NCBI GenBank assembly: GCA_003170415.1
Contig: PMZJ01000041.1
Coordinates: 94,283-158,282, forward strand
Direction: 5' to 3'
Source of the DNA: Phycisphaerales bacterium
GTDB taxonomy: Bacteria > Planctomycetota > Phycisphaerae > Sedimentisphaerales > Anaerobacaceae
DNA length: 64,000 nt
In this document: positions 1,948 through 20,372 of the stretch, piece after piece
Layout of the letters: each line of letters starts with the position of its first letter
Numbering within the stretch: position 1 is the first letter of the stretch
The notes under the pieces: generated by a model
Databases searched by the model: none
Told to the model about the DNA's origin: nothing
The model's input: only the letters and a program-made list of their open reading frames with translations
Program-made: the position numbers and the translations under genes

Positions 1948-2871
1948 TTACGCAAACAACGCTTCGGTGAAGGTGTCGGGGTCGAATTCGGCGATGTCTT
2001 CGGGTTTTTCGCCGAGACCGATGAATTTGACGGGGATGTTGAGCTGGTCTTTAATAGCGATGACGATTCCGCCACGCGCTGTGCCGTCGAGTTTGGCCAA
2101 GAAGATTCCCGAAATGTTGATTGCCTCGGTGAACATCTTGGCCTGCATGATTGCGTTTTGGCCCGTTGTGGCATCCAGCACTAACAGCACCTCAGTTGGG
2201 GCACCTTCAATTTTGCGGGCGACGACATCGCGTATTTTGGTGAGCTGTTTCATCAGGTCTTTTTGCGTATGAAGTCGGCCCGCGGTGTCGAGGATGAGGA
2301 AATCGACATTTCTTGCGGTGGCGGCTTCGCAGGCATCATAGGCGACGGCGGCGGGGTCGGAGCCCATCTGGTGCTTGACGATTTGAACGCCGATGCGGTC
2401 AGCCCATATTGAAAGCTGCTCAACAGCCGCTGCCCTGAAGGTATCGCAGGCGGCGACGATAACTTTTTTGTTGTCCCTGCTGAGGATATAGGCGAGCTTG
2501 GCGATGCTGGTGGTTTTGCCTGAGCCGTTGACGCCGGCGACCAAAATCACGGTCGGCCCTTTGGCTGCCAGGCGCACTTGTCTATCCTGATGAGGCCAGT
2601 AGCCCTTGATATGTTCTTTGAGAAACGGGACGATATCCTCAACCTTGCTGATTTTCCTGTCGCGGTAGGCGTTCCGCAAATCGGAGATGAGTTTGGCGGT
2701 GGTTTCGACGCCTATGTCGTCTTTTATGAGCGTTTCTTCGAGGTCGTTGAGCAGGTCATCATCGATGTTTCTGCCGATGGAAAGCACCGCAGACAGTGAC
2801 GAGCCGATTTTGTCGCGGGTTTTGCTCAGCCGGTCTTTGAAGTAGCCGATTGTTTTGGAAAATATGCCCAT
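1948..2871 (-). CDS. ftsY: Signal recognition particle receptor FtsY
   Basis: SRP receptor GTPase that docks SRP-ribosome complexes at the membrane. The helical N domain covers about residues 1-85. The G domain contains GVNGSGKTTSIAKLA (P-loop), DTFRAAAVEQL, DTAGRLHTQ, TKLDGTARGG, and the closing GLGEKPEDI...FDP signature of the SRP GTPase family. I place the start at the ATG at 2871 (MGIFSKTIGYFKD), giving 307 residues. The open frame extends to 2967, but that extension is basic and unlike FtsY. No acidic A domain is present, so this is the short form of the protein. It converges on the lipoprotein gene and diverges from dnaA, with a shared 300-bp intergenic region. Confidence 0.95.
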   Translation of the reverse strand: MGIFSKTIGYFKDRLSKTRDKIGSSLSAVLSIGRNIDDDLLNDLEETLIKDDIGVETTAKLISDLRNAYRDRKISKVEDIVPFLKEHIKGYWPHQDRQVRLAAKGPTVILVAGVNGSGKTTSIAKLAYILSRDNKKVIVAACDTFRAAAVEQLSIWADRIGVQIVKHQMGSDPAAVAYDACEAATARNVDFLILDTAGRLHTQKDLMKQLTKIRDVVARKIEGAPTEVLLVLDATTGQNAIMQAKMFTEAINISGIFLAKLDGTARGGIVIAIKDQLNIPVKFIGLGEKPEDIAEFDPDTFTEALFA

Positions 2872-2914
2872 AGTTAGCAGGTAAGTTTCGCAGAATCGGC
2901 TCGCAAATTCAAGG

Positions 2915-2948
2915 TTTATCCGCCGTCTGTGTGGTGGATTTATCCGCC
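2915..2948 (+). repeat. Twin TTTATCCGCC words upstream of dnaA
   Basis: TTTATCCGCC occurs at 2915-2924 and again at 2939-2948, 24 bp apart, roughly two helical turns. It resembles the DnaA box (TTATNCACA) only in its first half. These may be degenerate DnaA-binding or other regulator sites just upstream of the dnaA promoter. They are suggestive only. Confidence 0.3.
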
Positions 2949-2982
2949 GGACGATTTTTTGTCGCAAGTTGACTGATTTGGT

Positions 2983-3011
2983 TTGACAAAATTACCTTCG
3001 GCTGTTACACT
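2983..3011 (+). promoter_or_regulatory. Sigma70-type promoter of dnaA
   Basis: TTGACA at 2983-2988, a 17-bp spacer, then TACACT at 3006-3011. The predicted transcription start is near 3018, leaving a leader of about 155 nt. The leader contains a small inverted repeat AATAAC/GTTATT near 3080-3098 before the AAGGAG ribosome site at 3161-3166. Confidence 0.65.
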
Positions 3012-3172
3012 TTGTTCTGATTTACTCACGGATGGTCATCGTAACAACTGCAGAGGGTGATAAAAAGTTTTCGGCTGTTTCAATAACACGGATGTTATTT
3101 GTGACGGGTAACCTCTGTTTATAGTGGCATCGTTTTATTCGCCATTGGCGGATTTTTATAAAGGAGCGTGTC

Positions 3173-4492
3173 TTGGCCGGCGGTGAAGTAGAAAATATCT
3201 TCGCTGAAATATTAGACCGTGCAAGAACTCTGGACCCTGTCAACACCCGTAAGTGGTTTGATAACCTCCACGTTGTGCGTTTGACGGGCGGGTCGCTTGA
3301 GATTGGCTGCCCGGATGAGGCGTGTGCCCAGTTTTTGCAAAGCAAATGCAGGAGCGCGTTTACAAAGGCCGCACAGCAGATAACGGGTCATCTTGTCAGT
3401 GTGGAATTTTCCGCCAACGGCCAGGTCAGGCAGGAATACACCGAACAAGAACAAAAAGACAGGCCGACTCTTCACCCGGATTATACTTTCGAGAATTTTG
3501 TCGTCGGGTCCTGCAATCGGCTTGCGCACGCAAGTTGCATAGCGGTCAGCCAGTCGCCGGGGGATACTTATAATCCATTGTTCATCTATGGGAATTCAGG
3601 ATTGGGCAAAACGCACCTGCTTCAGGCGGTCTGCCACGAAGTGAAGCGAAAATCCCCGTCGGCGGTGATTCAGCTGTTAAGCTGCGAAGAATTTGTGAAT
3701 CGTTTTATCCAGGCAATCGAAAAGGGTGATTTGCCCGGCTTTCAGAGCCGGTTCCGAACCGTCGATACCCTTATTATCGACGACGTGCAGTTTTTGCGGG
3801 AACGCGAGCAGAGCCAGGAAGAATTTTTCCATACCTTCAACGCGCTGTACAGCAACGGCAAACAAATCATCCTCAGCGCCGACAGCCCGCCCGGCGAAAT
3901 ACCGTCTCTCGAAGAGCGGCTCATCAGCAGGTTTAACTGGGGCTTAGTTACGCGAATAGACCCGCCGAGTTACGAAACGCGAATCGCGATAGTGCAGAAA
4001 AAGGCGCATCTTCGCGGGCTTGACGTCAGCGAGGACGTGGCCGGCTACGTCGCACGCAAGGTGCACGCCAATATCAGGGAGCTTGAAGGGGCGTTGACGA
4101 CGATATACGCGGTGTCGATGACGACCGGCGAGAAAATCACCCTCGAGATGGCGCAGACCGCGCTGGACGGCCAGGTTGACCTCGGCACAAGGCACATAAG
4201 AATCAGCGATATCATCGATACCGTTTCCCGCCATTTTAACATTCGCTTAGCTGATTTGCAGAGCCAGAAGCGAAGCCAGAGTATCGCCGAGCCGAGACAG
4301 ATTTGTATGTACCTTGCCAGACAGCTCACAAAGCACAGCTTGGAGGAAATCGGCGGCCACCTTGGAGGGCGCGACCATACCACCGTTATGCACGCCTACG
4401 CCAAAATCGAGGAACTCCGCAAAAGCGACCCCAAAATGCACGCCACTCTGGAGCAATTGGCCGGCCAAATTACCCAAACCGCACGAGCATAA
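3173..4492 (+). CDS. dnaA: Chromosomal replication initiator DnaA
   Basis: AAA+ initiator of chromosome replication, 439 residues. Domain I covers about 1-80, followed by a short linker. The AAA+ domain has Walker A GNSGLGKTH (about 140-148), Walker B LIIDDVQFL and an arginine-finger segment ERLISRF. The C-terminal domain IV carries the DnaA signature LGGRDHTTVMHAY for DnaA-box binding. The start codon is TTG at 3173, chosen because AAGGAG lies 6 nt upstream and no ATG fits. The gene is not followed by dnaN, recF or gyrB, so the neighbourhood does not show the classical oriC layout. It is divergent from ftsY, and its own promoter is listed separately. Confidence 0.97.
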   Translation: MAGGEVENIFAEILDRARTLDPVNTRKWFDNLHVVRLTGGSLEIGCPDEACAQFLQSKCRSAFTKAAQQITGHLVSVEFSANGQVRQEYTEQEQKDRPTLHPDYTFENFVVGSCNRLAHASCIAVSQSPGDTYNPLFIYGNSGLGKTHLLQAVCHEVKRKSPSAVIQLLSCEEFVNRFIQAIEKGDLPGFQSRFRTVDTLIIDDVQFLREREQSQEEFFHTFNALYSNGKQIILSADSPPGEIPSLEERLISRFNWGLVTRIDPPSYETRIAIVQKKAHLRGLDVSEDVAGYVARKVHANIRELEGALTTIYAVSMTTGEKITLEMAQTALDGQVDLGTRHIRISDIIDTVSRHFNIRLADLQSQKRSQSIAEPRQICMYLARQLTKHSLEEIGGHLGGRDHTTVMHAYAKIEELRKSDPKMHATLEQLAGQITQTARA

Positions 4493-4529
4493 ATAAAACA
4501 GCGTACAGCGGGCAGCATATAGCGGACAG

Positions 4530-9962: not shown

Positions 9963-10736
9963 ATGAAGATAGATAGAAACTGTATGAAAGAACAAGCTTT
10001 AAGCAAAGTCCCCGAAGTAGCCCTGATCTTCTGGATCATCAAAGTCGCTGCCACTACATTGGGTGAAACCGGCGGCGACGCGGTGTCGATGTCGATGAAT
10101 CTTGGCTATCTGGTCGGCACTGCCATTTTTGCCATCATTTTTATTTTTGCAGTTGCCGCCCAGATTAAGGCCAAACAATTTCACCCGTTCCTGTATTGGA
10201 CAACGATTATTGCGACAACGACGGTTGGCACAACCCTGGCTGATTTCGCTGACCGCTCCCTGGGTATTGGCTATGCCGGCGGAGCAACACTGCTGTTCGT
10301 TCTGCTCATGGCATCCTTGGCCATCTGGTATTGGTCGCTCGGCTCGGTTTCAATAGATACCGTGAGTTCGCCAAGGGTAGAGATGTTCTATTGGGTCACG
10401 ATCATGTTTTCTCAAACGCTGGGTACTGCGCTTGGGGACTGGACAGCCGATACGGCCGGTCTCGGCTACGGAGGCGGAGCGATTGTCTTCAGTGCTCTCC
10501 TGGGATTGATAGTTGTGGCCCATTACTGGACAAAAATTTCAAGAACGCTGCTTTTCTGGGCGGCCTTCATCCTTACCCGGCCCCTTGGTGCCGTCGTAGG
10601 TGATCTTCTTGATAAGCCAATCAGTGCCGGCGGCCTGGCATTAAGTCGTTATTCAGCATCGGCTGTGCTTCTCGTAATCATCATTGTCTGCGTTTTGATT
10701 TTTGAACAGCGGCCGGCAAAACAATACGCATTGTGA
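9963..10736 (+). CDS. Four-repeat membrane protein (COG4705/DUF347-like)
   Basis: Integral membrane protein of 257 residues with about eight hydrophobic segments arranged as four related units. Each unit contains a version of T-LG-(E/T/A)-(T/A)-GD: KVAATTLGETGGDAVS, ATTTVGTTLADFAD, SQTLGTALGDWTAD, LTRPLGAVVGDLLD. This matches my recollection of the COG4705 family of uncharacterised membrane proteins. The paired acidic and small residues in each repeat suggest a transporter or channel, but no substrate is established. AAAGGTG precedes the start. The gene converges on and overlaps the 3' end of the histidine kinase gene by 56 bp. Context with a two-component system and an exported PepSY protein suggests an envelope or metal stress role (inference). 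Confidence 0.75.
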   Translation: MKIDRNCMKEQALSKVPEVALIFWIIKVAATTLGETGGDAVSMSMNLGYLVGTAIFAIIFIFAVAAQIKAKQFHPFLYWTTIIATTTVGTTLADFADRSLGIGYAGGATLLFVLLMASLAIWYWSLGSVSIDTVSSPRVEMFYWVTIMFSQTLGTALGDWTADTAGLGYGGGAIVFSALLGLIVVAHYWTKISRTLLFWAAFILTRPLGAVVGDLLDKPISAGGLALSRYSASAVLLVIIIVCVLIFEQRPAKQYAL

Positions 10737-12126
10737 ATATCCCGCTTGGCAGCACTTCTACAGAAGCCGAACCGCCTAATGCCGTGACAATTCGCTGAAC
10801 CAATGCCAGGCCAAGACCGCAATGGGTTCCCGTATCGGTGCGTGATGAATCGCCTCGCCAAAAGCAATCAAATACCTGTGAGGCCTCATCTTTTGTAAGG
10901 CGGCATCCCGTGTTCGATACGGCGATTTCTATTTTGTTGCCGGTTTGTTTGCCTTGAGTCCAAATTTGGTCACCTTCGTTGGTATATTCCACGGCGTTGT
11001 CCAAAAGATTTGATATCACCATCGAAAGGCCGTCGGGGTCAGAGCTGCAGGTCATTTCAGCGGTAATACGGTTCTCAAAAGTAACATTACGTTCGACCGT
11101 CCGGTGCGACAAGAGACGCCAGCAAGAATCGACTATCTCAGCGGGCCGAATCGTATCGCTGCGGAAGGTCGCCTGATTGGTGTCAATGCGAGAGAGAATC
11201 AGAAGATTGTTAATCATAGTTTGCATTCCCCTGGCTATTGTCAGACAATCGGAAAGAGCGGCTTGATATTCTTTCTGCTCGCGAACCCGTGTCAGGGTTA
11301 CTTCGATGGTGGAACTGATTCCCGCCAAAGGAGTCCGCAATTCATGCGCCACATCCGAAGTGAAGCGGCGTTCACGATTAAACGAGGCCTCCAGCCGTAT
11401 CAGCATATCATTGAGCCGGTCTTTGATGGGTTGAATTTCGGCAGGGAGGGATTCGGTTGTGATTTGAGAAGTGAGATTGTTTTCCTTTATGGCGGCAATT
11501 TCGCCGGCGAGCGTATTCAAAGGAGCCAGACCCCTTCGGACTATGAAACCTCCAGCGACAAAAGACAACGTAATAATGCTTGCCGAAGATACTAATAAAA
11601 GCCATCGCAGGAATTGCAGATTGTGCTGCATAATACCGGCGTCTCGAACGACTACTAATGTGACCTGCGGTATCTCAGCAGGCCTGTCATTTTTTCTTTC
11701 TTCGTTGTCTGATATTCCTGGGGTGAATTTGAATCCGACGGCACGTGCGGGCCGGTGGTGTTTCATAATTAGCGACCTGAAGACAGGCGTATCGGTAAAG
11801 CCATCGGGTCGCAAAAAATCTTCCGTGTCCATTGAGGGTGATTTTGCCACAACCGTTCCGTCTTGCTGCCATAGCTCATAGCAGGTCGGATGATGCGTTC
11901 TCTTAAACTCCGACATTTGGTCCGGTTCCAGCTCTAAGCTGATATTGCCTTTGTCCTGCTCCACGGATGCCTCTAACATTCTTGCTGTGGACAGCAGCGA
12001 CGCGTCGAATTGATTGATGAGCGAACGATGCACCACTCCATATATTACAAAGCTAAAGACAATCAACAGCATTGCCATACCAACAGATATGCCCATAAGC
12101 AATCTCGTCCGTATGGAGTTCGTCAT
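10681..12126 (-). CDS. Sensor histidine kinase
   Basis: Membrane sensor kinase of 481 residues. TM1 covers about 9-32, a periplasmic sensor region of ~135 residues follows, and TM2 is about 174-197 followed by a HAMP segment. The HisKA box FTSDVAHELRTPLAG has phospho-acceptor His261. The ATPase domain has the N box DNAVEYTNEG and the G box GLGLALVQ. The layout is that of the CusS/BaeS-type kinases often linked to metal or envelope stress (by architecture only). Its ATG overlaps the response regulator stop as ATGA (12123-12126), so the two are translated together. The 3' end overlaps the convergent membrane protein gene. Confidence 0.92.
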   Translation of the reverse strand: MTNSIRTRLLMGISVGMAMLLIVFSFVIYGVVHRSLINQFDASLLSTARMLEASVEQDKGNISLELEPDQMSEFKRTHHPTCYELWQQDGTVVAKSPSMDTEDFLRPDGFTDTPVFRSLIMKHHRPARAVGFKFTPGISDNEERKNDRPAEIPQVTLVVVRDAGIMQHNLQFLRWLLLVSSASIITLSFVAGGFIVRRGLAPLNTLAGEIAAIKENNLTSQITTESLPAEIQPIKDRLNDMLIRLEASFNRERRFTSDVAHELRTPLAGISSTIEVTLTRVREQKEYQAALSDCLTIARGMQTMINNLLILSRIDTNQATFRSDTIRPAEIVDSCWRLLSHRTVERNVTFENRITAEMTCSSDPDGLSMVISNLLDNAVEYTNEGDQIWTQGKQTGNKIEIAVSNTGCRLTKDEASQVFDCFWRGDSSRTDTGTHCGLGLALVQRIVTALGGSASVEVLPSGIFTMRIVLPAAVQKSKRRQ

Positions 12127-12797
12127 TGTTGTGCCCCTAAAATATAACCGCGACCTCGAACGGTATGAATCAGGACCGGTTTGTCTGGTCGTTCGATTTT
12201 GCCGCGTAGATACCCGATATAGACGTCAACCACGTTGCTGGAGGCAGAGGAGCCAAACTCATAAACGTGTTCCCATATGTCGGTGCGAGATATCGTCTGG
12301 CCGGTGTGCATCGCAAGGTATTCCAAGAGCGCGTATTCCCGCGGCGTAAGATGAATTTCTTCTTTGCCGCGCCAAACTCGCTGCGAGGTTAGTTCAATCC
12401 GAAGGTCGCCAACCTCAACGCAGGGGTTTTTCTTGGCATAACTGCGACGCACCAGCGCACGCAACCGGGCCAGCAATTCCTCGAACGCGAACGGCTTGAT
12501 TAAGTAATCGTCGGCGCCAAGGTTTAATCCCTTCACCTTGTCCTGCAGAGTGTCTTTGGCCGTCAGAATCAATACGTGGCTTTGACGACCTTCCGCTCTT
12601 AGCTTGCTGAGAATGCTAAGCCCATCGAGACCCGGCAGCATCAAATCCAGAATAATCACGTCATAATCATTGCTCGTCGCATACCACAGGCCTTCTCGCC
12701 CGTCCCCGGTAACGTCCACGGCGAAACCCGCTTCGCGCAGACCCTTTGTAAGGGATGTTTGCAAAGGTCGATAATCTTCTATTAACAATACACGCAT
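12123..12797 (-). CDS. OmpR-family response regulator
   Basis: Two-domain DNA-binding regulator, 224 residues. The receiver domain has the acidic pair E7-D8, phospho-acceptor Asp51 (VIILDLMLPGLDG), the Thr switch in LTAKD and Lys101 in KPF. The C-terminal winged helix contains LTPREYALLEYLAMHTGQ and VVDVYIGYLRGKIE, typical of OmpR/PhoB. It is the first gene of the regulator-kinase pair, with ATGA overlap to the kinase. The likely targets are itself, the PepSY gene and the membrane protein gene, since these lie together between inverted repeats (inference). Confidence 0.93.
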   Translation of the reverse strand: MRVLLIEDYRPLQTSLTKGLREAGFAVDVTGDGREGLWYATSNDYDVIILDLMLPGLDGLSILSKLRAEGRQSHVLILTAKDTLQDKVKGLNLGADDYLIKPFAFEELLARLRALVRRSYAKKNPCVEVGDLRIELTSQRVWRGKEEIHLTPREYALLEYLAMHTGQTISRTDIWEHVYEFGSSASSNVVDVYIGYLRGKIERPDKPVLIHTVRGRGYILGAQQ

Positions 12798-12808
12798 CTC
12801 AAACCGCC

Positions 12809-12845
12809 AAAAAAGCCGCTGAGGAGAAACGTTCTCCCCAGCGGC
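12809..12845 (-). terminator. Rho-independent terminator of the PepSY gene
   Basis: The stem GCCGCTG.GGAGAA at 12815-12828 pairs with TTCTCC.CAGCGGC at 12832-12845. On the minus strand the hairpin is followed by a T-run (12809-12814). It separates the PepSY gene from the response regulator operon, so the two are likely separate transcripts. Confidence 0.8.
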
Positions 12846-12892
12846 GTATATTCTAACCGCAAAAACTTGGTACGTCAGCAGCTTGGCTATCC

Positions 12893-13657
12893 TTAATCTT
12901 TCTCGTCCTCTGCCTGCTTGTCGATAATCTTTCCATCAGCAGCTACTTTAATCTCGAACTTCTTGCCGTCAACGATTATGTCGGCCCCATAAATGGTCTT
13001 GCCGTCCTTGCTCTCCTGCTCGATTTCCTTTACCGTTCCCTTGCCGGCCTCATTCATAATCGTCGCCTTGACCGCAGGCGGGACCTGGTCTATCGAAACT
13101 TTTTGCTCGTCCTTCTCTTCGTCATCCCCTTCTTTACCTCCGTTTTTGCCTTCGGCTTTCCGCCACGCTGATTTTTCAAGAACGGTTCCATTCGCCGCAA
13201 GCTTGATTTCGCAGGCGTTGCCGTCTTTGGTCAGCATAGCTTCGTATGCTGTTTCGGGCGCACTCAGTTTTATCGGCTTGATAACAGCATATGTGATTGA
13301 CTGCTCAATTTCTTTTATCTCTGCTCCTTCGGCCGCTTTAGATAATGCCTTGGCAACCACATCAGGAAGCTTTTCCTTGACCACTATGGTTTCCATCGAA
13401 AGGATAGTGCCGTCCGCCGCAATCGACGGCTCAGATTCCTGCCCATCCTGTTTTACAATAACCTCGAATACCTCAAACTCCTTTTCCTTGCTTGTATTTC
13501 CAATCACGGCCTGAGGATAAGCTTTTTGTATGGCATTCCTGACCGCATCGGGAAGCGTAACGCTCTTGCCCTCACCTTTGTCTGCATATGAAATCACACA
13601 AACCATTGATACCACAAGAGCTACCAGACCAATCCATTTCCAGATTCGCACGTTCAT
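12893..13657 (-). CDS. Exported protein with three PepSY-like repeats
   Basis: 254 residues from the ATG at 13657, with AGGAGA 7 nt upstream. An upstream in-frame start at 13693 lacks this site. A signal peptide or N-terminal anchor (WIGLVALVVSMVCVISYA) is followed by three copies of a ~75-residue unit. Each unit has a helix starting LP(D/P)AV..A(I/L), a strand with EV.VIK or EI.Q, and an end like (K/N)GT(I/V)L, as in PepSY/BLIP-like folds. Copies two and three are separated by a charged Lys/Glu linker. Such proteins sit beside two-component systems and bind metals or modulate signalling in several families. Here it is the upstream neighbour of the regulator pair, with its own terminator. The molecular target is unknown. 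Confidence 0.8.
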   Translation of the reverse strand: MNVRIWKWIGLVALVVSMVCVISYADKGEGKSVTLPDAVRNAIQKAYPQAVIGNTSKEKEFEVFEVIVKQDGQESEPSIAADGTILSMETIVVKEKLPDVVAKALSKAAEGAEIKEIEQSITYAVIKPIKLSAPETAYEAMLTKDGNACEIKLAANGTVLEKSAWRKAEGKNGGKEGDDEEKDEQKVSIDQVPPAVKATIMNEAGKGTVKEIEQESKDGKTIYGADIIVDGKKFEIKVAADGKIIDKQAEDEKD

Positions 13658-13761
13658 TTTAAATCTCCTAAAAAAGATTCTGCGGCCTGCCACCGTGGTC
13701 AGGCCGTCCCATGCGGGCCGAGCGGCTCACACGAGTATTTTCCAGACCAGAATACCGAGCG

Positions 13762-13797: not shown

Positions 13798-13973
13798 AGA
13801 GTTTTCTGCACACTCCGATTTCAGTCGCAAGGTCATATAAAATGCCGATCTTATTGTGGTTTTGCGTTCGCTGTTTTCGGAAATATCTTGCGGGGAGTTT
13901 GTAAAACAACATAATAGCATACGATTTGATACCAGTCGAATTTTGCGGGCAACTACATTTGGGGCAGGAAAAA

Positions 13974-15641
13974 ATGGATTTGAGTAATAGCCGTGGCGTG
14001 GTGTTTGTGGTTTTGGGGGTTCTGGCTTTATCAGCAATAACAGCGTTTTGGAAGCTTTCGGCACAACCCCTAGAAGACCACGAGTGTTATGTTTCTGTGA
14101 CCGCCAAGGAGATGCTCAACGGCGGCAGTTGGATTATGCCGACGTTTAACGGGCAGCCACGTTTGCAAAAAACGCCCCTTTCGTACTGGCTTGTCGCGTC
14201 GGTTGCGAAGGTTACGGGGAAAATTGACGAGTTTACGGACCGATTGCCAAGCGCGGTCTTCGCGTTTTTGTCCGCTGGCGCGATTTTATATTTTGTCAAT
14301 CGCTGGCTGTCATTTCGTGCGGCTGTCATATCTGCGGGGGTATGGGTAACATCGCTTGGATATATTCGCTATTCACATAATGCCAGGCCTGAGATGGCGC
14401 TTACCCTGTTTATCTCGTTGTGCCTGATGAGTTTCTATTCCGCGGTAAACACACAGAGTCGCAGAAGGCAAATTATGTATATGCTTGTTTTCTGGGTCAG
14501 CTTTGGCCTGGGCAATCTTGCCAAGGGTCCTGTGCCGATTCCATTAGTTCTTATTCCCGTGTTTTTTTACCTTGCGATATTCAGGCAGTGGCGGCAGGTT
14601 CCAAAGCTGTTGCCAGTGGCGGGTATATTGATTTTTCTTGCAATAATGCTGCCCTGGCCTATTGCGGCGGCCCACAGGGTGAACTGGGATATGGCGGTAT
14701 GGAAACGGGAGTTCATTGACCGATTTCTCGGTGAATACGCGGCGGGAAATTATCCCGTGTATTTTTACCTTTTGATAATATTCAAGTACACAGCGCCATG
14801 GGTTGTTTTTTTGCCGATAGCAGTCATCGCTCCCTTTTATCGAATCTGGGGTAAAAAACAGCCGGTTATGCGGTTTCTGTGGTTGTGGTTTGTGGCTGAT
14901 TTTGTGTTTTTGACGCTGTCGGGGGGAAAACGTCAGCATTACATATTGCCTTTGATGCCTGCAATGGCGATTTTGACGGGCATACTGCTCGAAGATATGG
15001 TTTTTATCCGGGAAGCATTTAGCCCGAGCTTTGCAAAGAAGGTTTTGCTGGGGTATCTTGCGGCGGTCCCTGTTTTGGCGATTGTCATAACGGAGGTTAT
15101 GCTTTCGGCCGGTCGTGGGTTGCTGCCGCTGGCTGTTATCGGTGTAGTTGTGATAACAGTTCCGGCGATTATTGTCGCGATATTGTTTGCGAAGGAGCGA
15201 TATATCGCCGGTTGCGCAGCTATGTTTTTATGGGCGGCAGGAATAATGCTGGTTTGTGATGTCGAATACAGAAACCGTGTTAATCCTGAGGAGCCGACGA
15301 AACGGTTCGCACGGGAAGTGGCGGAAAAGGTGCCTGTTACGGACACGCTTGTCGCATACGGTTCGGTATTACCTGAGTTTGTTCATTATTTTGGACGAAC
15401 TGTGCCCGTAGTTACTACCCAGGCGGAGCTTGACCGGTTTTATGAGCAGGGTTTCTGGATTGTGGTTTTGGGTAAAAAAATCAACCAGTTGAAGGAAGAC
15501 AGTCATTTTGACCTTGTATATATGTCGAAGGACGCCGCACGAGACAAACGCAACATTGTTCCGGGGGGATTGTTTCATAGGTCAGCTTCTGCAGTCCAGG
15601 CGTCTAATATGAGAATTCGTTATTTTTTACCGGAGAGATAA
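13974..15641 (+). CDS. ArnT/PMT-type membrane glycosyltransferase
   Basis: Polytopic GT-C glycosyltransferase that moves a sugar from a polyprenyl-phosphate donor on the outer face of the inner membrane. 555 residues from the ATG at 13974 (an AGGA-like site upstream). A TTG at 13926 would add 16 residues. The first loop has LEDHECY and NGQPRLQKTPLSYWL, the acidic and Lys-Pro pattern of the ArnT/RgtA/PMT_2 families. About ten to twelve hydrophobic segments follow, with a soluble C-terminal part from about residue 450. It is followed 4 nt later by a paralogous gene. The nearby ArnC-like transferase could supply its lipid-linked donor (inference). The acceptor could be lipid A or a surface glycan. 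Confidence 0.85.
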   Translation: MDLSNSRGVVFVVLGVLALSAITAFWKLSAQPLEDHECYVSVTAKEMLNGGSWIMPTFNGQPRLQKTPLSYWLVASVAKVTGKIDEFTDRLPSAVFAFLSAGAILYFVNRWLSFRAAVISAGVWVTSLGYIRYSHNARPEMALTLFISLCLMSFYSAVNTQSRRRQIMYMLVFWVSFGLGNLAKGPVPIPLVLIPVFFYLAIFRQWRQVPKLLPVAGILIFLAIMLPWPIAAAHRVNWDMAVWKREFIDRFLGEYAAGNYPVYFYLLIIFKYTAPWVVFLPIAVIAPFYRIWGKKQPVMRFLWLWFVADFVFLTLSGGKRQHYILPLMPAMAILTGILLEDMVFIREAFSPSFAKKVLLGYLAAVPVLAIVITEVMLSAGRGLLPLAVIGVVVITVPAIIVAILFAKERYIAGCAAMFLWAAGIMLVCDVEYRNRVNPEEPTKRFAREVAEKVPVTDTLVAYGSVLPEFVHYFGRTVPVVTTQAELDRFYEQGFWIVVLGKKINQLKEDSHFDLVYMSKDAARDKRNIVPGGLFHRSASAVQASNMRIRYFLPER

Positions 15642-15645
15642 GTGG

Positions 15646-17229
15646 ATGGATTTTACTGGCAGTCGTGGTAAGGCGTTTTTGATTCTTCTTGCTGCCTGGG
15701 CGGCGATATATCTGCCGGGTCTGGGCAGACAGGGGCTCAGGGGCGAGGAGGGGCGGCGGGTCCTGCCGGCGGTCGAAATGCTGAAGACCGGCAACTGGGT
15801 GCTGCCTCGCATCGCAGACCAGGATTACTATAACAAGCCGCCCGGGATAAACTGGCTTGTGGCCGCCTCATTTGTGCTGACGGGGGAACAATCGGAACTG
15901 ACGGCGCGGCTGCCTTCGGTGATATTCGCCCTGATTTTTGTGACGTTATTAATCTGGATGCCGATTCCATGGGCGGACCTCGAAGCCCGTTTTATTGGGG
16001 CGATAATTTTTCTGACAAACTTAGCGATTATAGAGAAAGGCCGGCTGATTGAAATTGAGATGGTTTATATAGCTCTTACCGGCATAGCGATGATTTTATG
16101 GCTGAGCATCTGGTCAAGGAATGGTTCAAGCTGGCTGTTGTGGATTGTGCCGTCGATATTTCTGAGTTATGGGATGCTGGTTAAGGGGCCGTTTATTCTA
16201 CTGTTCTTTTATTGTGTTGCGGTTGCGGTCCTTTATTACTCGAAGAAATTGAAGAGCTTGTTTTCGATTTGGCATATTATCGGATTGGGGATTTCCGTAC
16301 TTCCTTTCTGTGTATGGCTTTTGCTTGCTTTTCAGCGGACGTCAGCGACTAAAATGTCAACTCAAATGACAGGCCAATTGCTGATTCGTATCATCGGCAA
16401 TATAGATTTGCTTTACTGGGGTGGTAATTTCGTAAGAGAGTTCACAACATTTTTGCCATGGCTTCTGTTTTTGCCGATGCTGTGGAGCAGAAGAGTGACA
16501 AGCCGGGTTGCTCCGCAATACGAGGCGATTTTTCGCGGCAGTCGGCTCGGGATAGTAATCGGCTTCTGTATAATTTCCCTGATGCCGAAAATGGAGGCGA
16601 GATACACAATGCCTCTTATTCCGCTGGTATCTGTTTTGCTGGGTTGGATGCTCTCGCTTCAAAAGGAAATTGTCTCGACGGACCGTCTCTGGAAGAACAT
16701 ACTGCTGGCGGGTTTTGTTGTGTCGTGCCTGACTGCAGTGGTGGGATTGATATTTGCGTCGGTTTCGGTGGGGACGATTATCTCGCTGGCGGCAGCGATT
16801 TGCGCGACGATATTTATTTTCCTGAAACGCGACGCGATTCAAGGCAAGCCGGGGCTTTCACTTGCTACAATGCTGCTGGTTATTATTTTATCGCTGCAGT
16901 ATTCTTCCGCAATTATCGATATTGCGGTGCCGATGGAAAACCGTGCTCCGATTGCGACGGACATCAACAGGATTGTGCCGGCGGGGGAGACAATAAATAT
17001 GTTTAGGCCCGGCAGTCTTATTTACCCCGCGATTTTCCGTCTCAGGGCGCCCATCGGGTACCTCCATGACGCCAATGACATCAACGGGCAGGTCCATTAT
17101 ATATTTATAAGACAGAAGTATTTGAAGACGCAAAGTATTCAGGACAAGATTGCGTCCCGTTCCCCACGGGTTCTTTATAAGACCGCCGATACGGTGCCTG
17201 ATGAATATCAGTTGCTACAATTGGAGTAA
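15646..17229 (+). CDS. ArnT/PMT-type membrane glycosyltransferase, second copy
   Basis: Second GT-C enzyme of 527 residues, separated from its neighbour by 4 nt and with GGAGAG upstream of the ATG. The first loop reads GLRGEEGRRVLPAVEML then YYNKPPGINWL, the same acidic plus Lys-Pro-Pro arrangement as ArnT. The rest is a series of hydrophobic segments with a short soluble tail. The acidic pair here is Glu-Glu rather than Asp-His-Glu, so donor or acceptor may differ from the first copy. The two form a two-gene unit facing the leftward envelope operon. Confidence 0.85.
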   Translation: MDFTGSRGKAFLILLAAWAAIYLPGLGRQGLRGEEGRRVLPAVEMLKTGNWVLPRIADQDYYNKPPGINWLVAASFVLTGEQSELTARLPSVIFALIFVTLLIWMPIPWADLEARFIGAIIFLTNLAIIEKGRLIEIEMVYIALTGIAMILWLSIWSRNGSSWLLWIVPSIFLSYGMLVKGPFILLFFYCVAVAVLYYSKKLKSLFSIWHIIGLGISVLPFCVWLLLAFQRTSATKMSTQMTGQLLIRIIGNIDLLYWGGNFVREFTTFLPWLLFLPMLWSRRVTSRVAPQYEAIFRGSRLGIVIGFCIISLMPKMEARYTMPLIPLVSVLLGWMLSLQKEIVSTDRLWKNILLAGFVVSCLTAVVGLIFASVSVGTIISLAAAICATIFIFLKRDAIQGKPGLSLATMLLVIILSLQYSSAIIDIAVPMENRAPIATDINRIVPAGETINMFRPGSLIYPAIFRLRAPIGYLHDANDINGQVHYIFIRQKYLKTQSIQDKIASRSPRVLYKTADTVPDEYQLLQLE

Positions 17230-17254: not shown

Positions 17255-17911
17255 TTAGTTATGAGATAATTTTGGCAGTGGAGAGGGCACTTCGTTTATA
17301 ACGCCTGCCTGTTTGAGCATTTCTGCAAGTAATGCCATATTACTATTGAGGTATGGCAGCAAGTCGGGATTATCTTTGGCGTTCCAGCCGTAATGTTTCA
17401 TTTCGCTTATGACAAAGGCAGGGTCTTTTTTCTGCACTAAAAGCCGGAACATTGCGATGACGCCGCCCGTTCTTTGCGTTCCTGCGGCGCAATGCACCAA
17501 GACGGGCAGGTTTTGTTTTTCCGCATTGGCTATTGCGGCGACTGCACTGGCGTAATAATTTACATCTCCGGTGCCTTTGCCGCTCATAGGAAACCTTAAT
17601 ACCTTGATGTTCAGTTCGGCGGCGGCTTTTTTCTCGGCCTGCTGGTCCTGGTTTTTCGGGTCATCGTTTGTAAGGTCAACAATGACGCGGATATTGTGGT
17701 CGGCAAGGACTTTTTTGACCAGTGATGCCGATAGCTGCCCGCTGCGATAGATGCTACCCTGCTCCACGACGCCGAATCTTTTCGGGATGACGTGGTATCT
17801 GATAATGCCGAACCATGCCCATATTGCCAATCCAGTCACGATTAGCAATCCAGCGACAATTACCCGTCTGCGTCCGGTTGTGGAATATACTTTTGAATCA
17901 TTAACATTCAT
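17255..17911 (-). CDS. Membrane-anchored dual-specificity/tyrosine phosphatase
   Basis: 218 residues. A single N-terminal membrane segment (about 17-35) is followed by a phosphatase domain that should face the periplasm. The P-loop is VHCAAGTQRTGG, matching HCx5R with Cys141 and Arg147. IVDLTNDD holds a candidate general acid loop. Similar short exported DSP-like enzymes dephosphorylate lipids or proteins. In an envelope operon with glycosyltransferases and a UbiA enzyme, a lipid-phosphate substrate is plausible (inference). It is the last gene of the leftward operon, 25 bp after the Cys-less homologue. Confidence 0.85.
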   Translation of the reverse strand: MNVNDSKVYSTTGRRRVIVAGLLIVTGLAIWAWFGIIRYHVIPKRFGVVEQGSIYRSGQLSASLVKKVLADHNIRVIVDLTNDDPKNQDQQAEKKAAAELNIKVLRFPMSGKGTGDVNYYASAVAAIANAEKQNLPVLVHCAAGTQRTGGVIAMFRLLVQKKDPAFVISEMKHYGWNAKDNPDLLPYLNSNMALLAEMLKQAGVINEVPSPLPKLSHN

Positions 17912-17936
17912 ATGGTAATTCTTTTAGTATTCCGGT

Positions 17937-18491
17937 TTATCTGAATAAACCTCGGATAAAGTTTATCTCCTGTTCAGTAAGCTGTCCGTGTTTAGTTTCT
18001 ACGGCGTCGGCAAGAAGTTGTTCGAGGGGCTGCTGTCGGTTTTTGGCGAGCCATACGGCGGCGAGCATAGCGACACGGCCTTTGCCGCTGCCATCGTGGA
18101 CGAGCACGGGCAGGTTTTCTTTGTTTGCCATTATGGCGAGAAATTGCTGCTGCATATTAGCGTCGGGGAAATGGGCAGGGTCATTCACATTTTTGTCCAA
18201 CGGCATATCGACATACTTGACACCGTTGCTGCGGACCCAGGTTATTTCTTCGTTGTACCAGTTTTGCTCGCGGTGTTCGGCGGGCGAGCGGAGATTGATG
18301 ATTGTGGCGATATGATATTTGTAGAGCAGGCGGTTATAGTCCATACCTTTTGGCTGAGCGCTGGTGTAAAGCAGGGAGGGCTGGACGACGCGGAAGTTTT
18401 TAATGCAGAAACTTTGGACGAGGATGACGGCCGCGGTGATTAGTATTGCGGCTGTTATCAGGAGCCGAAGCGGATTTTTTTTCTTTTTCAT
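17937..18491 (-). CDS. DSP-fold protein with catalytic Cys replaced by Asp
   Basis: 184 residues with an N-terminal basic and hydrophobic anchor (KKKKNPLRLLITAAILITAAV) and a DSP-like domain (LLYTSAQPKGMDY, IATIINLRSPAE). The P-loop reads VLVHDGSGKGRVAM: His, Gly, Gly and Arg are kept, but the nucleophile Cys is Asp133 (codon GAT at 18093-18095 on the minus strand). It is therefore probably not a cysteine phosphatase. It may be a substrate-binding pseudophosphatase, or use a different chemistry. It lies 2 bp after the glycosyltransferase stop and directly upstream of an intact HCx5R homologue, a duplicated and diverged pair. Confidence 0.82.
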   Translation of the reverse strand: MKKKKNPLRLLITAAILITAAVILVQSFCIKNFRVVQPSLLYTSAQPKGMDYNRLLYKYHIATIINLRSPAEHREQNWYNEEITWVRSNGVKYVDMPLDKNVNDPAHFPDANMQQQFLAIMANKENLPVLVHDGSGKGRVAMLAAVWLAKNRQQPLEQLLADAVETKHGQLTEQEINFIRGLFR

Positions 18492-18493
18492 TT

Positions 18494-19504
18494 TTATTGT
18501 CCCGCCGGTTTTTGTCTGCGATAAATTGTTCGGACGGAGTAGATTTTCTGGCCGGTGGATTCGTAATAGACCCTGCTAATCATTTCGCCGATGAGTCCCG
18601 TGGCGATGAAGACGGTGCCTACCATCAGAAGAACTGCGGCAAGGCCCGCCATGGGGCCGTGAGCGATAAGGACCGGAACATTATAATAGAGCTTGTCGAA
18701 GAGTATATAGCCGGCCATCAGGGCGCTCGCGAGGATGCAATAGAAGGCGGCCTTTCCGAAGAAGTGAAGTGGTTTTGTGAGGTAGCCAAGGAGGAAGCGA
18801 AGGGTAATTAAATCGAAGGCGACCCTGAAGGTTCTGCCCAGCCCATAGTTGCTTGAGCCGGAGGGTCTTACGATATTTGTAATGGGGATTTCGATAATCC
18901 TCATTCCTGATTGCGAGAGCAAGGCGGGGATGAATCTGTGCATTTCGCCGTAGAGGTGCAATTGCTCAATGACTTCCCTGCGGTACGCCTTGAAGGTTGT
19001 TCCGAAATCGTGGATGTCAACGCCGGAGATTTTAGAGGCGAGCCAGTTGGCGGCCCTTGAGGGTATTTTTCGCATAACGAGGTTATCGACGCGAGTTTTT
19101 CGCCAGCCGCTGACGACGTCGTAGCCCTCACCGAGTTTTTCGAGGAAAATCGGTATTTCTTCCGGCAGGTGCTGCAGGTCGCCATCCATTGAGATTATTA
19201 TTTGGCCCTTTGCGATATCGAAGCCGGCGGCGAGTGCGGGTGTCTGGCCGAAGTTGCGGCGCAGCTCGACGACGACGACTTTACTGTCGGCTGCGGCAAT
19301 TTCTCTGAGAATCCGGAGAGTGTCATCCGCGCTGCCGTCGTCGATGAAGATAAGCTCATAGCAGAGGCCCGTTGCGGTCATTGTTTTTGTCAGTCGCTGG
19401 TAAAGCTCGCTGACTACTTTCGATTCATTGTAGAGCGGCACGACGACGGAGCAATCGATAATCGGGTCCGTTGAGGATTGCGGTTGTTTTTCAAAGTTGG
19501 CCAT
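18494..19504 (-). CDS. ArnC/DPM1-like polyprenyl-phosphate glycosyltransferase
   Basis: Family 2 glycosyltransferase that loads a sugar onto undecaprenyl phosphate, 336 residues. The catalytic domain has CSVVVPLYNES, LIFIDDGSADDT, and the metal-binding SMDGDLQH followed by VSGWRKTR. Two C-terminal transmembrane segments (about 245-315), with the YESTGQKIYSV tail, are typical of ArnC/GtrB/DpmG. Its start overlaps the deacetylase gene by 14 bp. It fits as the donor-making partner of the two ArnT/PMT-type enzymes encoded opposite. Confidence 0.9.
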   Translation of the reverse strand: MANFEKQPQSSTDPIIDCSVVVPLYNESKVVSELYQRLTKTMTATGLCYELIFIDDGSADDTLRILREIAAADSKVVVVELRRNFGQTPALAAGFDIAKGQIIISMDGDLQHLPEEIPIFLEKLGEGYDVVSGWRKTRVDNLVMRKIPSRAANWLASKISGVDIHDFGTTFKAYRREVIEQLHLYGEMHRFIPALLSQSGMRIIEIPITNIVRPSGSSNYGLGRTFRVAFDLITLRFLLGYLTKPLHFFGKAAFYCILASALMAGYILFDKLYYNVPVLIAHGPMAGLAAVLLMVGTVFIATGLIGEMISRVYYESTGQKIYSVRTIYRRQKPAGQ

Positions 19505-20339
19505 AATGTATAAGTTTTATACCTGCGTCTTTGAAATATTGTTTTGTTTTTTCGCTGCAAAGGGCCTCAATCTCGACTTCCCGCTGTTTGACGAGGCGAG
19601 TTCGAGTCGCGTCGAGGTCGTAGGCATATCCCGGATGCGTCATTAGCTCTGCTGTCGAGGCGGTATTATACAGGGAAACGGCCCGCATAAAAACGGTATT
19701 TATTTTTCCGACGTGGTTGACGCCTAAGAGCGCATCGGTTTTGAAGAACAAGGGATTTTGCCAGTGGTTAATTTTCGCCATTGTTCGCACGAGCGACGCG
19801 CGTTTTCTGCTTTCGCGGTCGGTTACAGGCCAGGGCAATTGGCTTACCTGCTTTGGCTCAAAGGTATATCGGATTGCTGATATACCAAAACGTTTGGCTA
19901 ATCGGCAGACAATCGGAAATATGGCTGGGAAACTATGAATGTGCTTGTGCGAATCGAGGTGCGTGGGCTTTATGCTTTTATCGATGAGCCATTGAATCTG
20001 GGAGGCGAGTTCGGTTTCGATGGCGGTTCTGACTTTGCCGGTTATGAGGGACGCGAGTGCGAGCTTGTCTGGCGATAAAGCGAAATGTCCCTGTGAGTCG
20101 AGGATTAATTTTACGGTGTTATCCTGGCAGAGGGGTTTTCCGGCGGTGAGGTTGAGATGGACGCCGACGCCGAGTGTGGGCAGATTTTTGGCTAAATCGA
20201 CGGCTTGCTCGGCGGCGGGCATATTGGCCATAAGGGTCGTGCTTGTCAGGACACCTTTAGTGTATGCCTCGACAATTCCTTTATTGACGCTTTCGCATAA
20301 TCCGAAGTCATCGGCGTTTATTATTAGTCGTTGTTCCAT
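19491..20339 (-). CDS. ChbG/HpnK-family carbohydrate deacetylase (YdjC-like)
   Basis: Metal-dependent deacetylase fold, 282 residues from the ATG at 20339. A TTG at 20348 is the longest frame. The N-terminal INADDFGLC gives the conserved metal Asp, and LGVGVHLNLTAG and THLDSHKHIHSFP provide the metal His residues of the family. Members remove acetyl groups from chitobiose or from hopanoid or glycolipid sugars. Placed between a UbiA prenyltransferase and an ArnC-like transferase, a role on a lipid-linked or surface sugar is likelier than chitin use (inference). The 3' end overlaps the transferase start. Confidence 0.88.
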   Translation of the reverse strand: MEQRLIINADDFGLCESVNKGIVEAYTKGVLTSTTLMANMPAAEQAVDLAKNLPTLGVGVHLNLTAGKPLCQDNTVKLILDSQGHFALSPDKLALASLITGKVRTAIETELASQIQWLIDKSIKPTHLDSHKHIHSFPAIFPIVCRLAKRFGISAIRYTFEPKQVSQLPWPVTDRESRKRASLVRTMAKINHWQNPLFFKTDALLGVNHVGKINTVFMRAVSLYNTASTAELMTHPGYAYDLDATRTRLVKQREVEIEALCSEKTKQYFKDAGIKLIHYGQL

Positions 20340-20372
20340 TGCCGGCAAGTTTAAGGCGGCTTCGTATCGTCG

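Follow-up and report, generated by a model that had tools for sequence, protein, structure and literature searches.

Two DSP-fold proteins at one locus

What does a membrane-anchored DSP-fold protein do beside envelope genes once the catalytic Cys of its P-loop has been replaced? The question is raised by a locus in the window, that is, the whole 64,000-nucleotide stretch of DNA analysed here, which belongs to a planctomycete genome of 2.67 Mb in 43 contigs with 95% completeness (G000). Both of the adjacent frames proposed by the first-pass annotation are indeed open on the minus strand: the active-type DSP (17255-17911, 218 residues) carries the intact P-loop HCAAGTQR (17471-17494), and the pseudo-DSP (17937-18491, 184 residues) carries the degenerate P-loop HDGSGKGR from H132 to R139 (18075-18098), with Asp133, the changed residue also named there, in place of the Cys and Val140 in place of the Ser/Thr that follows the Arg. 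The description of the latter as Cys-less holds for the catalytic Cys, the only one absent, but not for the protein as a whole, which keeps a Cys at residue 29. The DSP fold assigned to both was borne out, since both proteins exceeded the Pfam cut-offs for DSP/PTP families and yielded AlphaFold models (mean pLDDT of 90.1 for the pseudo-DSP and 87.6 for the active-type DSP) with Foldseek matches to solved members. For the pseudo-DSP the best solved matches were PFA-DSP1 and the cytosolic Siw14 (E 1e-7), and Siw14/PFA-DSP proteins were also among its best PDB sequence matches. For the active-type DSP the best solved match was TpbA, the periplasmic DUSP of Pseudomonas aeruginosa (Foldseek E 5e-8). 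Siw14, the closest solved fold to the pseudo-DSP, is itself an active inositol-pyrophosphatase according to the title of 6byf. Both window proteins have a single N-terminal hydrophobic segment preceded by a basic N-terminus, which in the pseudo-DSP is a predicted transmembrane helix at residues 7-28 (18408-18473, minus strand), and by the positive-inside rule their DSP-fold domains are thus predicted to be periplasmic.

In transcription order on the minus strand, the locus begins with two genes that we take, from their sequences, to be MiaA and UbiA, followed by a YdjC/HpnK-type deacetylase with a proposed NaxD-like role (19491-20348), a GT2 of the ArnC/polyprenyl-phosphate glycosyltransferase type (18494-19504), the pseudo-DSP and the active-type DSP. 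There is an overlap of 14 bases between the YdjC and GT2 frames, 2 bases separate the GT2 stop codon from the pseudo-DSP start, and 25 bases lie between the two DSP genes. Convergent with the DSP pair, two ArnT-like genes are encoded on the plus strand, namely an ArnT-like (PMT_2) transferase (13926-15641) and a second, strongly diverged one (15646-17229), which gave a weak ArnT match (E 2e-11) and no meaningful Pfam match. Further genes on the minus strand encode a PepSY-like exported protein (12893-13693; matches below cut-off), which lies between ArnT and a two-component system, and, by profile matches, the OmpR-type response regulator of that system (heavy-metal/PmrA-like, 12123-12797), a possible regulator of the locus, and its partner sensor histidine kinase (10681-12126). 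This set (10681-13693) resembles one near active-DSP, ArnT and PAP2 genes in another locus (L128, 1046-9655), the response regulators being 67% and the kinases 44% identical. Since similar two-component/PepSY sets stand beside ArnT here and near active-DSP/ArnT/PAP2 genes there, the regulator may control the sugar-lipid pathway discussed below.

Partners of the pseudo-DSP and the pathway they suggest

We then searched 148 related genomes, a sample of related MAGs that are not independent, for the genes of this locus. Orthologues of the pseudo-DSP (E<=1e-40, with the next match at 1e-12) were detected in 34 of them, so the gene is not a chance reading frame. GT2 orthologues (>=67% identity, all others <=54%) occurred in exactly the same 34 genomes, and the ArnT-like transferase (E<=1e-50) in 35, comprising these 34 and G110. 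A hypergeometric value calculated for the match between the pseudo-DSP and GT2 sets takes no account of how closely the genomes are related and is not to be read as a probability. In 34/34 cases the pseudo-DSP and GT2 matches lay on the same strand, 1-124 bases apart. The gene order YdjC-GT2-pseudoDSP recurred in a survey of 34 loci (G444 and 33 orthologue-bearing genomes, the window's genome not among them), all of which had GT2 and the pseudo-DSP together. YdjC was beside GT2 in 32, the two misses being contig ends and the copies in G007 and G120 being partial. An ArnT gene was close by in 25/34; where it was not, the contig ended next to the pseudo-DSP (G027, G062) or was short (G128, G120), or at least 13 kb was covered and ArnT was present elsewhere in the genome (G089, G095, G107, G111, G117). 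In each of the five genera with both states (g1, g23, g35, g46, g76; G067 of g23 is 54% complete), the presence and absence of the cassette genes changed together, and the fourth genome of the window's genus (G002, 96% complete) is without the cassette. The stable partner of the pseudo-DSP is the ArnC-like GT2. As a minor observation, the GT2 match contains one TAA stop in G017, G045 and G062.

The enzymes of the cassette were assigned by profile and structure matches. The GT2 scored 193 bits against the ArnC model (E 6e-57), below the 529-bit NCBIfam equivalog cut-off, and its best PDB match was ArnC (E 4e-51). The YdjC domain is clear, with a Pfam score of 207.7 against a cut-off of 29.7, and the protein reached 183.5 with the HpnK model, under the cut-off of 232.6. 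The transferase scored 124.5 against 567 for ArnT (PRK13279), short of a full-length equivalog match, so that we call it ArnT-like and not ArnT, and its closest solved relative is ArnT (E 2e-17). Because all three fall below the NCBIfam equivalog cut-offs, the substrate names rest on analogy. The analogy is with the FlmF2-NaxD-FlmK and ArnC-ArnD-ArnT systems, which comprise the same enzyme types (polyprenyl-P GT2, deacetylase and ArnT-type transferase); we know of no DSP-fold partner in either system. FlmK transfers galactosamine from C55-P-GalN to the lipid A 1-phosphate (PMC6581854), NaxD, which is induced by PmrA, deacetylates N-acetylgalactosamine (PMC9431647), and flmF2 and flmK encode LPS glycosyltransferases (PMC4688374).

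Since it always stands beside enzymes that put sugars on lipids, the pseudo-DSP looks like a working, non-enzymatic part of a pathway and not like a broken copy of its active neighbour. On balance, we favour the reading that it is a non-catalytic periplasmic component of a pathway leading from an aminosugar-phospho-polyprenol to the modification of lipid A/LPS. With the fold, the loss of Cys and Ser/Thr, the purifying selection, the co-occurrence and the adjacency computed for the pseudo-DSP, we infer its topology, the pathway chemistry, the ligand and the role as follows. The pseudo-DSP would be tethered by one N-terminal helix, with the DSP-fold domain in the periplasm. The GT2 would put an acetamido sugar onto polyprenyl phosphate, and the YdjC enzyme would deacetylate the lipid-linked acetamido sugar. 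Once the resulting lipid-linked aminosugar was at the periplasmic face, its sugar would be moved onto lipid A/LPS by the ArnT-like enzyme. In this scheme the pseudo-DSP would serve as a binding or presenting subunit that recognises the lipid-linked sugar, a lipid A phosphate or the transferase itself, through the pocket that has lost its nucleophile and a family-specific conserved surface.

The same enzymes and the same pseudo-DSP partner might decorate a target other than lipid A, such as an O-polysaccharide, a glycoprotein or another lipid, a reading that we regard as rather doubtful. It would suit the diversity of PMT_2/ArnT-like enzymes and the missed equivalog cut-offs for ArnC, ArnT and HpnK; moreover, LpxC is found in 137/148 genomes against 34 with the cassette, so that the cassette does not simply accompany LPS. 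However, LptF/LptG genes for LPS-export permeases lie within a few kb of YdjC-GT2-pseudoDSP at 7/34 loci, all in one family (L104-L108, L111, L113), a Kdo/WaaP kinase gene is inserted between YdjC and GT2 at one of the 34, and the best structural matches are ArnC and ArnT. The occurrence of LpxC in G000 itself and in most of the related genomes also supports a link to LPS. By analogy, the enzymes fit aminosugar decoration of lipid A, and an outer-membrane lipid is probably what is decorated.

The active-type DSP as a separate family

The first-pass annotation had regarded the two DSPs as a tandem enzyme and pseudoenzyme pair. Part of this stands, as the second protein proves to be a pseudoenzyme that is conserved, shows no degradation and neighbours envelope genes, but the pair is not a conserved unit: the tandem occurs only in G000, G001 and G003, all from the window's genus, or 3/35 genomes when the window is counted with the 34 surveyed loci, and we rejected it as a functional unit on this ground. 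Indeed, the companion of the pseudo-DSP is GT2, and that of the active DSP is ArnT. The active DSPs form a separate family (E<=1e-40), present in 18/148 genomes, of which 10 also have the pseudo-DSP and 8 do not. All 22 family members examined retain the Cys, and one of them (L162, 3000-3743, QCGAGTHR) reads QCX5R instead of HCX5R, with Gln for the His ahead of the kept Cys. In seven loci (L100, L103, L116, L120, L122, L126, L128), the next gene downstream of the active DSP on the same strand is ArnT-like, and a PAP2 gene follows in L125 and L128. On the reading favoured here, the active DSP makes up a module of its own that is linked to ArnT, and it probably removes phosphate from a lipid or a sugar in the periplasm. 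TpbA, its closest solved structure, is described in PMC4409338 as acting in biofilm signalling, whereas the active-type DSP instead neighbours ArnT-like, PMT or PAP2 genes. In L122, the active-type DSP is immediately followed by a gene (2345-4495) for a PMT_2 transferase that bears LAB_N, the lipid A biosynthesis N-terminal domain, at its C-terminus.

These distributions bear on a further possibility, put forward by the first-pass annotation, that the pseudo-DSP regulates the active DSP by binding or competing, as MK-STYX does with PTPMT1. The proposal would explain the tandem arrangement in the window's genus, and it has a precedent in the binding of PTPMT1 by MK-STYX (PMC8622459). However, it fits only the 10 genomes with both families, the active family also being found in the 8 that are without the pseudo-DSP, and the tandem itself is confined to those three genomes; we thus consider it improbable. 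STYX and MK-STYX also differ from the pseudo-DSP in being eukaryotic proteins of MAPK and stress pathways, whereas the pseudo-DSP is bacterial, membrane-tethered and encoded in a glycosyltransferase operon; to our knowledge, neither has a membrane anchor of this kind. Other Cys-bearing DSPs share loci with histidine kinase genes in L128, L129, L130, L131 and L133, with a response regulator as well in four of the five, and a Cys-bearing DSP adjoins a Kdo/WaaP-type kinase gene in L132 and L133.

P-loop, selection and reach of the pseudo-DSP family

To return to the pseudo-DSP as a non-catalytic pathway component, its P-loop was compared across 35 orthologues, namely those of 33 of the 34 orthologue-bearing genomes together with L005 (5' truncated, counted for the P-loop and left out for topology) and L161 (from G444). 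G027 was excluded from the counts as a contig end cuts its pseudo-DSP before the P-loop, and the orthologue alignment did not include L001-L004 or L006, of which L002, L003 and L004 are taken as copies of G001:C66, G003:C37 and G114:C28. The comparison set was 24 chosen Cys-bearing DSPs, with two more HC proteins (L175, L176) left aside. Asp133, whose fixation the first-pass annotation had wished to see checked, turned out to vary: the position is occupied by Gly in 19/35, by Asp in 14 and by Cys in 2, encoded by GGC/GGA, GAC/GAT and TGC, respectively, in 34 of the 35, and Asp133 as a fixed substitute for the nucleophile was therefore rejected. His132 and Arg139 were retained in 35/35. In contrast, the Ser/Thr after the Arg, present in 24/24 of the Cys-bearing relatives, was found in none of the orthologues (Val 32, Glu 2, Ala 1), and the P-loop Gly136, likewise kept in 24/24 relatives, is Asp in 7/35. 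None of the 35 carries the full active-DSP signature HCX5R(S/T), and residue 110 of the conserved FPD varies. It is accordingly very unlikely that the pseudo-DSP has remained an enzyme, be it a phosphatase or a transferase, with Asp133 or some other residue as its nucleophile; the invariant His132 and Arg139 speak for such an enzyme, but Gly at position 133 in more than half of the family, the complete loss of the Ser/Thr and the variable residue 110 argue against it.

The first-pass annotation had counted a Cys in orthologues of the second gene against its own reading, and such a Cys does occur, in 2/35; one of them (L014) nevertheless looks like a regain, and both are without Ser/Thr after the Arg, which weakens the case for these members as active enzymes. 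In a tree of 59 sequences, built with the P-loop columns removed, the 35 pseudo-DSPs fell on one side of a branch with support 100/100, and Cys versus non-Cys required 3 changes on this tree, the best reading of which is a loss of the Cys on the stem followed by two regains. L014 nests next to L012 and L011, both with Gly, so its Cys is most simply regarded as a regain by one base change. The Cys of L115, nearer the base, is less clear and could be ancestral under other rootings.

That the pseudo-DSP is a decaying duplicate retained by chance next to GT2 is the least credible reading, as the freedom of the P-loop to vary, with position 133 changing state at least 10 times, is outweighed by open frames in all members, dN/dS well below 1 (on which decay was rejected), the invariant columns and the genome sets shared exactly with GT2. 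Degradation of the gene in relatives, which the annotation would have held against its reading, is not seen: we observed no internal stops or pseudogenes among the pseudo-DSP orthologues of the 34 genomes, 21 columns are invariant across 34 sequences (orthologue alignment A1), and dN/dS was 0.08-0.34 in 17 of 18 estimates (nine close pairs by two methods) and 0.50 in the remaining one (L029/L030, YN00). The pseudo-DSP is thus non-degraded and under purifying selection. With a DSP fold, the Cys gone in 33/35, the Arg kept in 35/35 and low dN/dS, the family formally resembles STYX, in which the Cys of HCX5R is likewise replaced, there by Gly (PMC8622459), as in 19/35 of the family members. According to the same source, STYX (C120G) binds ERK, so a dead DSP pocket can bind without hydrolysis.

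Outside the P-loop, D51, Y52, R54 and Y57 are invariant and H60, H73 and E95 near-invariant in the pseudo-DSPs. As none of these residues is conserved in the Cys-bearing relatives, their conservation suggests a new interface. Within the P-loop, some members are acidic (HGSGDDER), a feature that speaks against one phosphate pocket being conserved throughout the family. We speculate that a cationic aminosugar would be a better fit than a phosphate for the alternating carboxylates; Asp133 (14 members) and Asp136 (7 members) never co-occur, but 12 Gly and 2 Cys members have neither, so the idea stays speculative. A fuller version, which we offer as tentative, would make the family an order-wide bacterial periplasmic pseudophosphatase that a polyprenyl-phosphate aminosugar pathway has taken over as an obligate subunit. 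The former phosphate pocket of the protein, now Cys-less and often with a carboxylate (Asp133, or Asp136 in members of the HGSGDDER type), together with the new conserved surface of D51, Y52, R54, Y57, H73 and E95, would hold the cationic aminosugar-phospho-lipid and hand it to the ArnT-like transferase.

Pseudophosphatases and ArnC/NaxD/ArnT-like pathways are both known kinds, the former mostly from eukaryotic signalling; what seems new is a conserved bacterial pseudo-DSP beside an ArnC-type GT2. We found no report of a bacterial pseudophosphatase like it in the literature searched, outside which most subscription papers lie. With such a protein, the pathways for attaching aminosugars to outer-membrane lipids would gain a member that is not an enzyme, and its cassette would offer an initial way into the study of how planctomycetes decorate lipid A. 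Furthermore, the occurrence of Asp, Gly and Cys at one position provides a natural series for probing the use of a dead phosphatase pocket.

The reach of the family was surveyed at two levels. Among 397 evenly drawn genomes of the class, all matches above 260 bits were within the order and the rest scored at most 85 bits. Across 392 genomes of the phylum, a survey that re-drew few of the 34 genomes and so tests reach outside the order only, no pseudo-DSP orthologue was detected besides the window's own, and the five other matches were all HC. On these two surveys, the pseudo-DSP family is, as far as sampled, confined to this order. The further claim that the lineage has no described periplasmic DSP signalling was not established, and Cys-bearing DSPs are common in this class; indeed, the non-orthologous matches to the pseudo-DSP profile A1 had a Cys in every P-loop read.
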